A stretch of DNA of 64,000 nt from Gammaproteobacteria bacterium (GTDB lineage: Bacteria; Pseudomonadota; Gammaproteobacteria; Xanthomonadales; SZUA-36), in assembly GCA_021772915.1 (NCBI GenBank), contig JAJFLB010000034.1, forward strand, positions 116,631-180,630, read 5' to 3'. How positions within the stretch are numbered: the first letter of the stretch is position 1; each line of letters begins with the position of its first letter. The translations under genes were made by a program, and so were the position numbers. A model generated the notes under the pieces. The model was not told the DNA's origin. It ran no database searches and saw only the letters and a list, made by a program, of their open reading frames with translations. This document shows, one piece after another, positions 10,048 to 28,780 of this stretch.

Positions 10048-12153
10048 TTGAACTCGCAACCAACAAAATCAACCTCCCTGGTGATAGGGGGAATGCTGCT
10101 GCTCGGACTGCTGGTGAACAACGCAGTGGCGGCAACTGGCGTGGATACAAGTAACTGGCTATGCAGCTTTTGCAGCTATCCCAGGGCTTGGCTCGGCTCG
10201 TTCGAGGTCGGTCCGGGTTACGCCAATGAGCCTTCCCTGAAATTTGGCGACCACCGGGGAATAGAGGACAAAGGAACCTTCCTCTCGATTTACGGTGACC
10301 TCCACTACCGTAACGATTCCGGTGGCTACTTTGACCTGTACACCCGGGATGTGGGCACCAGCGCCCGCCAGCTGGAAATGCGCGGTGGGAGACGTGGACG
10401 TTTTGAATTCCGGCTGGTCTACCGGGAAACACCCAAGTACAGGGGTTTTGGCACCCAAACGCCGTTTCAGGGAACAGGCAGTAGTCAACTTGTGCTGCCC
10501 CCAAGCTGGGTTAGTGCGTTTACAACCGATGGCCTGAGCGGTTTAGGGTCTCAGCTGAACCCATTAACGCTGGACACCTCGCGGAAAGCCTTCGGAGCCG
10601 GTCTGAGTTTGAGAATATCCAGTAAATGGCACTACCAGTTAGACATCCATCACACGGAAAAAACCGGCACCCGCCCTTTTGGGGGTGGCGTCCTGACCAT
10701 TCATTCAGCACAGCTCCCCGCTCCCGTTGACTTCACCACCAACCGGATTGAGATGGGTTTGGAGTATGCCGGCGAGCAATCACGCGTGCGCTTTGGATTT
10801 AGCAGTACCTATTTCAATAATGATAACGCCTCCTTGACCTGGGAAAATCCCTTCAGCCCCATCGGCGCCACGCAATTATTACGTGCGGCACTTGAACCCG
10901 ACAACGACTTTTACCAGTTCAGTCTCACCGGCACTTTCAAGGCAACACCCAGGCTACAGTTTTCAGGCCGCGCGGCCGTTGGCCGCACCCGGCAGGACGA
11001 GCCGTTCCTGGCTTATTCCAGCAATCCAGACTTCAGCACCTTGCAGTTACCACGTGCATCCCTGGGTGGAAAGCTTGACACCAGCTCACTCAACCTGGCC
11101 GCACGCGGGTCTGCGCGTTTAACCCGCAAGTTAAGACTGAACGTGCGTTTGAAAATCGATGAAAAGGACAACCGGACACCGGTCGAGTTTTACACGCCGG
11201 TGATCACCGACCTGGCACCGCGCCCGGAAACCCCCAACCGGCCTTATTCTTTCAAACGTAGCCAATACTCCGCCGAGCTCTCTTATCGGGCAACGCCGTG
11301 GCTGAACTTTAATGCCGGAACAAAACTGAAGAACCACGACCGGACCTTGCAAGCGGTACGCGAAACCGAGGACCTCAGTTGGTGGGGTGACGTTAACTTC
11401 ACCCACTGGGCCGCGGCGCAATTGCGACTCAAGATCGAGACCTCTGACCGGAGCAACTCGCCCTATGTGCTGGTAAGTGACCCGGGATTGCAGGAAAACA
11501 TACTCATGCGTAAGTTCAACCTCGCCGACCGGCAACGTGACCGTGTGGTGCTCGAACTTAACCTGGCGCCGACTGAGCAATTAAGCGCCGGCCTTAGTTA
11601 CTTTGTTGCCAAGGATCGTTATGAACGGTCATTGCTCGGTTTACTTGGCAGTGATGAAGACAGCTTCAACCTGGACCTGGGTTTTGCGTTTAGTCCAAAT
11701 ATCAACCTGCACGGCTTCGTCACCCGTGACGAATACGATTCCGAGATTTCGGGGGCGACCGACCCCGACGCCAAACCTTGGAGGGCCAGAACCGAAGACC
11801 GTTTCACCACCTTTGGAGTTGGTTTGAGCGGCAAACTCGGTACCAGGATAGACCTGGGTTTGGATTTCATTTCATCGATTTCCAAAGGCCGAATTACAAC
11901 GGACAAAGGGGCTGGTGAAGCACCCTTTCCCCAGTTGAAAACAGACCTGCAAAATACCCGGATTCATTTGAGTTATCGCGTCAGCCCACGTTGGGGCTGG
12001 AAGCTCTATGCCGAGCACGAGAAGTACACCAGCACGGACTGGCAGATAGATGGTCTGGGCAACGATGGCCTCAGTGCCATTCTGACGTTGGGTGAAGTCA
12101 GCCCGGACTACAAGGTCACGCTACTGCGATTACTCGCAAATTATACTTTTTGA
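10048..12153 (+). CDS. MtrB/PioB-family outer-membrane beta-barrel
   Basis: A 701-residue exported protein made almost wholly of alternating amphipathic strands and ending in Phe (NYTF), as expected for an outer-membrane barrel. The signal peptide spans about residues 1-29. The mature N-terminus has CxxC (WLCSFCSYP, about 38-41), a feature of MtrB/PioB proteins. It would sheath the decaheme cytochrome encoded just before it. The start is TTG at 10048; a GTG (codon 12) and an ATG (codon 16) would remove the positive N-region. No outer-surface decaheme protein (MtrC/OmcA) or DMSO-reductase subunit is adjacent. Confidence 0.85.
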   Translation: MNSQPTKSTSLVIGGMLLLGLLVNNAVAATGVDTSNWLCSFCSYPRAWLGSFEVGPGYANEPSLKFGDHRGIEDKGTFLSIYGDLHYRNDSGGYFDLYTRDVGTSARQLEMRGGRRGRFEFRLVYRETPKYRGFGTQTPFQGTGSSQLVLPPSWVSAFTTDGLSGLGSQLNPLTLDTSRKAFGAGLSLRISSKWHYQLDIHHTEKTGTRPFGGGVLTIHSAQLPAPVDFTTNRIEMGLEYAGEQSRVRFGFSSTYFNNDNASLTWENPFSPIGATQLLRAALEPDNDFYQFSLTGTFKATPRLQFSGRAAVGRTRQDEPFLAYSSNPDFSTLQLPRASLGGKLDTSSLNLAARGSARLTRKLRLNVRLKIDEKDNRTPVEFYTPVITDLAPRPETPNRPYSFKRSQYSAELSYRATPWLNFNAGTKLKNHDRTLQAVRETEDLSWWGDVNFTHWAAAQLRLKIETSDRSNSPYVLVSDPGLQENILMRKFNLADRQRDRVVLELNLAPTEQLSAGLSYFVAKDRYERSLLGLLGSDEDSFNLDLGFAFSPNINLHGFVTRDEYDSEISGATDPDAKPWRARTEDRFTTFGVGLSGKLGTRIDLGLDFISSISKGRITTDKGAGEAPFPQLKTDLQNTRIHLSYRVSPRWGWKLYAEHEKYTSTDWQIDGLGNDGLSAILTLGEVSPDYKVTLLRLLANYTF

Positions 12154-25693: not shown

Positions 25694-27220
25694 TCACTGC
25701 ACTAAATCGTCGCTAGGTTTTGATTTTTTGAAGCTGCCGCCGCCGCCATCTTTGAGCACTTCCAATTCAAACACATTTGCATGAACTGCCCTTCTCAGGA
25801 CGATGTCAATAAGTGTTGTTCCATTGGGGTGTAAAGCATTACCGAGAAGCTTCTTCGAGGCTCGAATCTCACAGGGAAGGTAATGTACGAACCCCTTTTG
25901 CGGTCGCGGTATAACTTTCATGCCAAGCATTTCAACACCTTTGGAGGCTGACCGGATGACTTTGTCCTTATCATCTTTTATTTCCCCCGAACCTATCATC
26001 ATATCGTAATTGAAGTAATATGTTATGACCTCTGGATTGAGCTTGTTTCTCTGCCGGTCTGCAAAAAAACCCGTTGGGAGATGATTGGGGTCGTTATCCT
26101 CGCCCGCTGTTAACACCAAGTCAAAATCAGGGACAGGGAAACCCTTGTGATCACGAACTCGAAATATGACCATCGAAAACTGATCATGAAAAAAATGTCT
26201 TTCGGTCCTCAAGAAGTTTTTTTCAGTTTCGAGCCTTTCATTTTCTTGTATAACATCAGTTTCCTGAGAAAATCGCCCACATAATGTACGGTAATCCGGC
26301 TTTGACTTTACTTGAATACAGGAAATTATTGCGTTAACAGTTTCTCGACTCTTCTTGTCTCTCGGAGTCTTATGCACACTTCGCATAATGCCCATATCAC
26401 CCCCCGAATGTGACTTGTTGCCGATGATCCTTAACGCTGACTTCGGCGATTCCTTATATTCTTCAACAAATAGTTCTGTTGCACTCAGCCCACTTTTTGC
26501 ATCTGCCTCTTTGACTGGGGGCACTTGTACTAACCGAATATATCTGCCATTTAGATTTGCGGCTGCGACCCGAACAACCCCGTCTGAACCCATCTCACCG
26601 GTGTAAGAGTTCAAACTGTCGTAAAACGATCGGTCAATATACTGACCTGTCAACACAAATGGAAAAATTCCGTTCGCTTTGATTTGACTGCCATCACTTG
26701 TAATCCATGCCATGTTCAGTTCCCAGGCTTTGGCACTACCAAGTTCTAACCAATCCAAAACTCTTTGTCCTGGTTCAACGCCTCCGAACCAGGATTTCAT
26801 ACGACCCAATCTTCCTTTTCCAAGCTGTGCCAATGCGGATCCATGGTTAGCAGGAGCCAACATGATGAGGTGGCTCATTGGGCATGTGCCGCTGTTCGGT
26901 TTGAGTGCGAAGTACTTGTACCACCACTCACGTATAACAGGCCCACCGGTTGAATGGGTGATACAAACAAACCGGGTACCTGTTGCCAGCACATCAAAAA
27001 GTTGTTTTTTTAAAGCAGCGTCAAATGCTCTGGCAATATCTGTGACGCGAACTTCATCATGAAAGCTAATGTACTTTCCAAGATGAATTTCCTTGGTCTG
27101 AATCTCAATGCCGACGGCACTGGCCTCTGTTCTGAGGCGCTGCGGCAGACCACCATATGTATCTGTATTGGTGACACTCCAACCGTGCACAAAAACAACC
27201 ACAATTTTATTTGTTGACAT
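25694..27220 (-). CDS. Serine alpha/beta hydrolase partner of a TIR protein
   Basis: A 508-residue cytosolic protein with no signal peptide or membrane helix. The N-terminal 300 residues are a lipase/esterase-type alpha/beta hydrolase: VFVHGWS oxyanion strand (about 9-15), nucleophile Ser90 in CITHSTGGPV, Asp213 in GSDGVVRVAAAN and His271 in NKSHSGGDMG. The C-terminal ~200 residues form a beta-rich region I do not recognise (FSMVIFRVRDHKGFPVPDFDL; IDIVLRRAVHANVFELEVL) with a Gly-rich tail. GAGGAG seven bases before 27220 sets the start, five codons inside the longest frame. It lies 102 bp after the TIR gene. A lipid or acyl-ester target in a defence or toxin module is inference from the pairing. 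Confidence 0.75.
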   Translation of the reverse strand: MSTNKIVVVFVHGWSVTNTDTYGGLPQRLRTEASAVGIEIQTKEIHLGKYISFHDEVRVTDIARAFDAALKKQLFDVLATGTRFVCITHSTGGPVIREWWYKYFALKPNSGTCPMSHLIMLAPANHGSALAQLGKGRLGRMKSWFGGVEPGQRVLDWLELGSAKAWELNMAWITSDGSQIKANGIFPFVLTGQYIDRSFYDSLNSYTGEMGSDGVVRVAAANLNGRYIRLVQVPPVKEADAKSGLSATELFVEEYKESPKSALRIIGNKSHSGGDMGIMRSVHKTPRDKKSRETVNAIISCIQVKSKPDYRTLCGRFSQETDVIQENERLETEKNFLRTERHFFHDQFSMVIFRVRDHKGFPVPDFDLVLTAGEDNDPNHLPTGFFADRQRNKLNPEVITYYFNYDMMIGSGEIKDDKDKVIRSASKGVEMLGMKVIPRPQKGFVHYLPCEIRASKKLLGNALHPNGTTLIDIVLRRAVHANVFELEVLKDGGGGSFKKSKPSDDLVQ

Positions 27221-27322
27221 TGTAATTCTCCTCAACCGGTAAAATACGCGTCAAATTCTGTTCGTCTTTCCCTTATTGGTCTGCACTTTCGATGTGAAAA
27301 TGTAGTTTTCTGTCTTGCGTGC

Positions 27323-28252
27323 TCAGCCGCTTGCGCCCGATCTAAGATTCCAGTAGCCGAAGTTGTCTTCTTTTTCGCGACACATAACCACACGGCCACG
27401 GAAAAGTGACAGTCGTTGCTTTAATGCAAGTGTCGTTGACCCCGTCCATGTCCCTTCCATAATTTCGTTACCGCCGATCAATTCCAGAAAGACTGTACCG
27501 CAAATCGGGATTGCCCCTTCGGCCCAGTAAGACAGCGCAATGAAACCTTGGGAAGACACCACACCCTCCATTGGGTACGGATGTCCCTTACTGCCTTCGC
27601 CAACTACCCGAAGCCGTGTTTCGGTGGTCCATATTTCTACGGTATCTTCTTCAAAGACTGATTCTTCTCCTCCATCTTCCAGTTGGGTCCATTTTGCAAA
27701 CCATTTTCCCTGCAGTTTCTTCGCTGTGTCGTTTGAGTGAAACTGGCCATAAAAGAGATCCTTAGATAGTCGCTCCTGCTTGTGTTTCTCCACCTCGACA
27801 AGATATGCATCGACTGCCTGATGCCAGAGTTGCGTGTTTACATCCCGGCCGGTGTGCTTCCGCACCAATCGTTCACAGAGTTCCATTACACTGTTTCGAC
27901 TATCCCCAAGATAGATTTGTTGATCCTGCAGCGGTGTGGGAAGTCGCTCGACGGACATGAAATTAGTGATGGGAATGACGAGCCGGTCACCACCGAGCCC
28001 AAGTGCGAACGCCGATTCAAAAAAGAGCCAGGGCCTGTTTATGGATTCGGGTGTAAAAAGCGCCAGAAGCACATCAGCAGCTTCTAGTTGTTTGCCTATT
28101 TTCTCCCGCCATCGACCCGGGCCGAGCCCTCCGGTTGGTGTTGGATCGCTAGAGAACCAAACATCAATGCCTGGGGCAATGAGTTCAAAAAGCGACTTCC
28201 ATGCTCTTGCGAGCCTTCGCTCCTCATACATGTGGCTAATAAATATTTTCAT
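27323..28252 (-). CDS. TIR-domain protein with C-terminal beta domain
   Basis: A 309-residue cytosolic protein. Residues 1-135 form a TIR fold: MKIFISH first strand, IDVWFSSDP, and RPWLFFESAFALG, where Glu79 is at the catalytic position of TIR NADases. Residues about 190-309 form a separate beta-rich domain (LQGKWFAKWTQ, EIWTTETRLRVVGEG, FIALSYWAEG, MEGTWTGST, RGRVVMCRE) that looks like a small barrel and could sense a ligand. The start at 28252 is chosen because TIR proteins begin with K-x-F-I-S; a Met lies four codons upstream. The hydrolase gene follows on the same strand. Use of NAD+ and an immune role are inferred from the family. Confidence 0.85.
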   Translation of the reverse strand: MKIFISHMYEERRLARAWKSLFELIAPGIDVWFSSDPTPTGGLGPGRWREKIGKQLEAADVLLALFTPESINRPWLFFESAFALGLGGDRLVIPITNFMSVERLPTPLQDQQIYLGDSRNSVMELCERLVRKHTGRDVNTQLWHQAVDAYLVEVEKHKQERLSKDLFYGQFHSNDTAKKLQGKWFAKWTQLEDGGEESVFEEDTVEIWTTETRLRVVGEGSKGHPYPMEGVVSSQGFIALSYWAEGAIPICGTVFLELIGGNEIMEGTWTGSTTLALKQRLSLFRGRVVMCREKEDNFGYWNLRSGASG

Positions 28253-28264
28253 TACACCCACCAT

Positions 28265-28706: not shown

Positions 28707-28780
28707 TGGAGCGGGTGATGGGAATCGAACCCACGTCTTCAGCTTGGGAAGCTGAGGCCCTACCATTAGACGACACCCGC
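28707..28780 (-). tRNA. glyU: tRNA-Gly (anticodon CCC)
   Basis: A 74-nt cloverleaf with encoded CCA. Acceptor GCGGGTG pairs with CACCCGC; the T arm reads GTGGGTTCGATTCCCAT; the anticodon stem TCAGC/GCTGA encloses the loop TTCCCAA, giving anticodon CCC. It resembles E. coli glyU. The stretch at its 3' side (25.7-28.7 kb) carries the TIR/hydrolase pair, a common position for integrated islands. Confidence 0.95.

Follow-up and report, generated by a model that had tools for sequence, protein, structure and literature searches.

A TIR-domain gene in tandem with a PlaB-type phospholipase gene: a candidate NADase-phospholipase defence pair beside a tRNA-Gly gene

A TIR gene followed by a PlaB-type phospholipase gene

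The window analysed here is a 64,000-nt stretch of contig JAJFLB010000034.1 from a gammaproteobacterial assembly (GCA_021772915.1). On its minus strand, at 25694..28252, a gene for a TIR-domain protein is followed by a gene for a homologue of the phospholipase PlaB. The pair is tentatively read as an abortive-infection module that was acquired at a tRNA-Gly hotspot and would couple an enzyme consuming nicotinamide adenine dinucleotide (NAD), that is, an NADase, to a phospholipase. This reading is graded a candidate and, though the most favoured, held with less than even confidence, with a chance neighbourhood of the two genes as a nearly equal rival.

The TIR gene (27323-28252) encodes 309 amino acids from an ATG at 28252, with an alternative in-frame ATG at 28264. 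The hydrolase gene (25694-27220) encodes 508 amino acids from its ATG, and its open reading frame (ORF) reaches back to a TTG at 27235. The hydrolase lies downstream on the same strand, with a spacing of 102 bp and no gene in between. An earlier, sequence-only reading of the window had described this layout, which the ORFs confirm, and its view of a TIR protein and a lipase-type enzyme in tandem is supported. The base composition of the pair is unusual. The features of the locus, all on the minus strand, are as follows.

27323..28252, minus: TIR-domain protein, first gene of the pair, 309 amino acids (ORF; Pfam TIR_2 4.5e-7; PADLOC TIR-TM 2.3e-5)
27965..28246, minus: TIR domain (residues 3-96) with W75-x3-E79 (Pfam match range and alignment column; coordinates worked out by hand from the residue positions)
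27377..27706, minus: C-terminal portion of the TIR protein, about residues 183-292, conserved in a homologue from genome G302 (alignment; boundaries estimated; beta-rich by eye)
25694..27220, minus: PlaB-type phospholipase A homologue, 508 amino acids (6zth match 1.2e-121, residues 5-486; S90, D213, H271)
25697..26203, minus: C-terminal region of PlaB (about residues 340-508), the part left unrecognised in the sequence-only reading (6zth alignment to residue 486 and family alignment; boundary estimated)
27228..27233, minus: Shine-Dalgarno-like GAGGAG ahead of the PlaB ATG (read off the sequence)
28707..28780, minus: tRNA-Gly(CCC), 5' neighbour of the pair and likely integration hotspot (tRNA call; 9 of the 11 loci from relatives have one close to the same deacetylase-family gene)

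Identity of the hydrolase

By sequence, the hydrolase is a PlaB-type phospholipase, C-terminal region included. A phmmer search of the PDB returned a single match, 6zth/6zti, "PlaB phospholipase" (E=1.2e-121), which we take to be the Legionella protein. The alignment pairs window residues 5-486 with chain residues 15-470, Ser and His motifs included, and thus assigns to PlaB the stretch of about 200 residues that had been considered an unrecognised C-terminal region. The same match rules out the hydrolase as an undescribed protein. The Ser90-Asp213-His271 triad reported from the sequence is intact and complete, with all three residues invariant in 13 aligned PlaB sequences (the window among them) and the contexts THSTGG, SDGVVR and SHSG present. 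The solved chain carries Asn at the position of Asp213 (an inactive mutant was reportedly crystallised), and relative to this chain the window PlaB has an insert around residues 225-255. No Pfam family exceeds its cut-off for the hydrolase, no known signal-binding domain is matched in Pfam, and no PADLOC model is significant (best E=0.059). The protein begins MSTNKIVVVFVHGW, in which no signal peptide is apparent by eye.

Diwo and colleagues reportedly described, in PNAS in 2021, NAD(H) at the dimer-dimer interface of PlaB, favouring the inactive tetramer, and the NAD(H) step of the mechanism proposed below rests on that report. To our knowledge, no defence role has been described for PlaB, and no title or abstract opening among the open-access literature matches listed places PlaB in a defence operon. 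The tetramer of Legionella PlaB is described as inactive, with dissociation activating the enzyme (PMC5377070). A link between PlaB and NAD was not found in the available parts of PMC9867486, PMC5701174, PMC9132575 and PMC5377070.

The TIR protein

The TIR domain exceeds the curated Pfam cut-off for TIR_2 (PF13676; E=4.5e-7, 30.8 bits versus 28). In PADLOC, the protein matches TIR-TM (2.3e-5) and, weakly, ThsB (E=0.033), and no match to the ThsB TIR family PF08937 is listed in Pfam at E up to 1. Glu79, which had been placed at the NADase position, falls in an alignment column where 16 of 18 TIRs have Glu, in the local context W75-x3-E79. The window TIR is a probable NAD-cutting immune enzyme, and its NADase activity is predicted.

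The only close relative found is encoded in genome G302, of another order, with 45% identity over residues 1-295, and it is with this homologue that the C-terminal part is conserved. No significant family match was found for this part in profile searches including Pfam and PADLOC; as a guess, it may be a sensor. At the G302 locus (L069:8001-9539, plus strand), the relative is followed 63 bp on by a second TIR gene, cut by the contig end, and a scan of genome contigs with two TIRs as queries, in which two patterns were used, gave two loci, one of them on this contig. Among structures, a first PDB sequence search with the TIR gave no TIR match, and in a second the sole TIR-domain match, 7uxr, was weak (E=0.031). 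In PHROGs, the window TIR matches two families of unknown function and PlaB matches none; no relatives were found in viral contigs.

NADase-type genes beside other PlaB genes

PlaB was matched strongly (E below 1e-98) in 8 further genomes among 369 sampled from the class, 28 further among 250 from the order and 7 further among 398 from the phylum, these samples being draws rather than complete sets. A Photobacterium plasmid adds one locus, giving 44 other PlaB loci in all, and a further match on a Legionella lytica plasmid stands outside the neighbourhood counts. Neighbouring genes were assessed with a TIR profile, SIR2 and TIR queries and genome-wide Pfam searches (the Photobacterium locus by profile and query only).

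At two of these loci, PlaB adjoins NADase-type genes that differ from the window TIR. In genome G860, the sole one of the 44 loci in which a TIR gene adjoins PlaB, PlaB is separated by 22 bp from a ThsB-like TIR gene (PF08937 2.2e-22; PADLOC ThsB 1.2e-21), which is followed after 24 bp by a gene for a 411-residue TPR-sensor protein and, 2 bp further, by a second ThsB-like TIR gene (1.1e-14). The two TIR genes, the TPR-sensor gene and PlaB form an apparent operon (L139:743-4219, minus strand). In genome G645, PlaB is the first of four genes in an apparent operon (L137:3504-9237, minus strand) and lies 2 bp from a SIR2-like gene (PADLOC Aga_SIR2 8.7e-8; Pfam SIR2_2 1.7e-4, below cut-off), followed after 27 bp by a gene for a SIR2-PNTD protein (1.4e-189) that is overlapped by a short pAgo gene (1.3e-186), all on one strand. 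The latter two resemble SPARSA, a pair of SIR2-APAZ and pAgo proteins whose activation leads to NAD hydrolysis (PMC10781750).

G860 and G645 are members of another class in this phylum, and strong PlaB matches occur in 4 of 78 genomes of that class. A 25-sequence tree, built from the window PlaB and 24 of 43 others, joins the PlaBs of G645 and G860, whose NADase-type partners differ, as sisters (100/99), and a 100/99 split parts them from the window PlaB. PADLOC searches of 96 neighbour ORFs matched each Thoeris or SIR2 model to one member, with the E-values of the G860 and G645 genes; the other matches were to an RtcR-like regulator and weak ones. These ORFs came from GC-rich genomes, where neighbours were picked mechanically (140 picks, 96 sequences scanned, a few substituted), and their Pfam table lists 25 of 104 families. 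As the partners in G860 and G645 differ, the recurring pattern may be PlaB with an NAD-consuming gene rather than the exact pair of the window.

The frequency of this association was estimated across 44 PlaB genomes, which hold 50 TIR_2 and 22 SIR2_2 matches, split matches being counted apart. An NADase-type match lies within 2 kb of PlaB in 2 of the 43 non-window genomes versus 0.10 expected (P=0.0046, under uniform placement and with clustering ignored). G645 enters this count through its second SIR2 gene, at a distance of about 1.5 kb, since the SIR2-like gene next to PlaB falls below listing. With the window included, the count is 3 of 44 (P=1.7e-4), a figure affected by the window having been chosen for its pair.

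The ThsB-like TIR beside PlaB in G860 speaks for a Thoeris-like alternative, in which a cyclic ADP-ribose-type product of the TIR binds PlaB, perhaps at the site reported for NAD(H), and activates it as a lipase effector. Thoeris consists of a ThsB TIR and a ThsA effector, and the window likewise has a TIR gene beside a putative effector gene. The window TIR differs in carrying an extra C-terminal part, and the effector would be a phospholipase. Against such signalling, which is considered unlikely, the window TIR matches ThsB weakly, the neighbour in G645 is a SIR2 rather than a TIR, and PlaB lacks a match to a known signal-binding domain. Membership of Thoeris itself is ruled out, as the TIR is not of the ThsB family and no ThsA lies beside it (the neighbour is PlaB, without a PADLOC ThsA match).

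Conservation of the pair and the case for chance

Several observations weigh against a joint function. The window TIR subfamily lies beside PlaB at none of the 44 other PlaB loci, so the exact pair was seen once and a conserved exact pair is ruled out within the loci sampled. Neither a TIR nor a SIR2 neighbour is present at 42 of the 44, and none was found at the 20 distant PlaB-like loci examined (20 of 24 genomes, with G317, G399, G886 and G891 left out). Among the 28 order-level PlaB loci, 23 come from one family and have ordinary chromosomal neighbours, DUF218 being the commonest. Ten other proteins of the window were searched with PADLOC, and nine gave no match and one AAA ATPase a weak one (best 1.9e-8); as Pfam also found no defence family among the ten, a wider defence island is rejected. 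The TPR-sensor gene of G860 occurs in 57 plasmid records, and at the four plasmid loci inspected it has a TIR gene nearby, with no annotated lipase in the PLSDB gene tables, which are incomplete. The TPR-sensor/TIR part of G860 may therefore be an independent unit, and SPARSA is described as complete with its two members, so that PlaB may merely sit beside that unit and beside the SPARSA-type genes of G645. Lastly, the chance estimate above ignores the clustering of mobile and defence genes, and because defence genes cluster, the true significance is weaker than P=0.0046. The order of G241, with three genomes, gave nothing useful.

At the four plasmid loci (L150, L151, L152 and L154), which belong to plasmids of four genera, the TPR-sensor (TRAFs-binding) gene lies near small TIR genes in what looks like a mobile unit.

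In combination, the pair found once, the 42 loci free of TIR or SIR2 neighbours and the G302 relative with another TIR as its next gene do not bear out the proposal that the window holds a conserved two-gene system. They fit instead a chance gathering, at one tRNA hotspot, of two unrelated foreign genes, one for TIR defence and one for a stand-alone phospholipase, that do no joint work, and the unshared genes that several relatives carry beyond the same tRNA, described below, point the same way. This explanation is a serious contender, neither established nor improbable. It sits less easily with the shared strand and the 102-bp gap with nothing in between, with the distances of 2 bp and 22 bp between PlaB and NADase-type genes in two genomes of another class, and with a probability of about 0.005 under uniform placement. 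The possibility that the hydrolase is a housekeeping family with its own neighbourhood, which the sequence-only reading had named as a counter-argument, is borne out in part: PlaB is a known phospholipase family and, at the loci examined, mostly a stand-alone chromosomal gene, yet it recurs beside NADase-type genes, a TIR in G860 and a SIR2 in G645.

Probable import at a tRNA-Gly locus

The pair was probably imported, since it is AT-rich, PlaB is absent from the other genomes of the genus sampled, and a tRNA-Gly gene with variable downstream content adjoins it. Its GC content is 0.468, versus a mean of 0.533 (standard deviation 0.018) over 2.56-kb window steps; 2 of the 308 steps fall at or below the value of the pair. 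None of the 9 other genomes sampled from the genus, several of which are 77-89% complete, gave a PlaB match, and within the family the matches are limited to two distant relatives. Inherited housekeeping thus fails to explain the window PlaB. The same absence counts against the view that defence rests on the TIR gene by itself, with PlaB as a passenger that remodels lipids. In favour of that view, PlaB stands among ordinary genes in 23 order-level relatives of one family, and PMC9132575 mentions Pseudomonas aeruginosa PlaB as an intracellular phospholipase A; on balance it appears quite improbable.

Close homologues (59-79%) of the deacetylase-family gene beyond tRNA-Gly(CCC) were recovered from 11 of the 12 other genomes searched. 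tRNA-Gly(CCC) lies near this gene in 9 of the 11 relatives' loci, in the order and orientation of the window in 8. Beyond the tRNA, seven loci are readable: four, one from the genus and three from other genera, have in common a gene set that seems ancestral, and three, all of the same genus, carry, as does the window, genes found in none of the others. This unshared content fits an integration hotspot within the genus. Neither a repeat of the tRNA 3' end nor direct repeats were found around the pair.

Elsewhere in the window, at 10048-12153 on the plus strand, an MtrB/PioB-type outer-membrane porin is encoded (Pfam 6.4e-134), which hints at extracellular electron transfer genes.

Proposed mechanism

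Common to three PlaB loci, the window included, is an NAD-consuming fold beside a lipase that is reportedly inhibited by NAD(H). The simplest model is de-repression. In the reading of the pair as an abortive-infection module, PlaB would be held as an inactive tetramer while NAD(H) is plentiful. The TIR protein, an NAD-consuming enzyme whose C-terminal domain may sense the trigger, would be switched on in phage infection. As the TIR consumed NAD, the tetramer would loosen into active lipase dimers, and the freed lipase would cut membrane phospholipids, so that the infected cell dies or stops. The NAD concentration would thereby serve as the signal between the two genes. NADase activity of the window TIR, phage trigger, NAD gating of the window PlaB and cell death are steps that we infer.

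A broader proposal, which is doubtful, casts PlaB-type phospholipases as death effectors gated by NAD(H) and repeatedly recruited with interchangeable NADases (the window TIR, a ThsB-like TIR, or SIR2 with short Argonaute). NAD depletion would then act as a second messenger that sets off destruction of the membrane, with the window pair as its minimal two-gene form.

Relation to known systems and significance

The window hydrolase is homologous to the solved PlaB (6zth/6zti) over residues 5-486, C-terminal region included, and differs from it in adjoining a TIR gene and in the insert at about residues 225-255. With CBASS systems that use phospholipase effectors, the pair shares a phospholipase as the suspected cell-killing effector. 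However, no CD-NTase was seen beside the window pair, its neighbours being ordinary by Pfam, and PlaB is an alpha/beta hydrolase rather than patatin-like, unlike the CBASS phospholipases. The likeness to SPARSA lies in G645, whose apparent operon begins with PlaB and continues with a SIR2 gene and a SPARSA-type pair. SPARSA is not present at the window locus, and the published system is the SIR2-APAZ/pAgo pair (PMC10781750). The window pair is placed as a candidate variant of TIR/NADase-type abortive defence.

In TIR and SIR2 immunity, depletion of NAD is usually regarded as the final step. Were a lipase freed by falling NAD, depletion would instead be a signal with a downstream executioner. 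Should this be true, a family of lipases studied mostly for its part in virulence would gain a parallel role in phage defence, and the reported NAD(H) regulation of PlaB would have a physiological reason.
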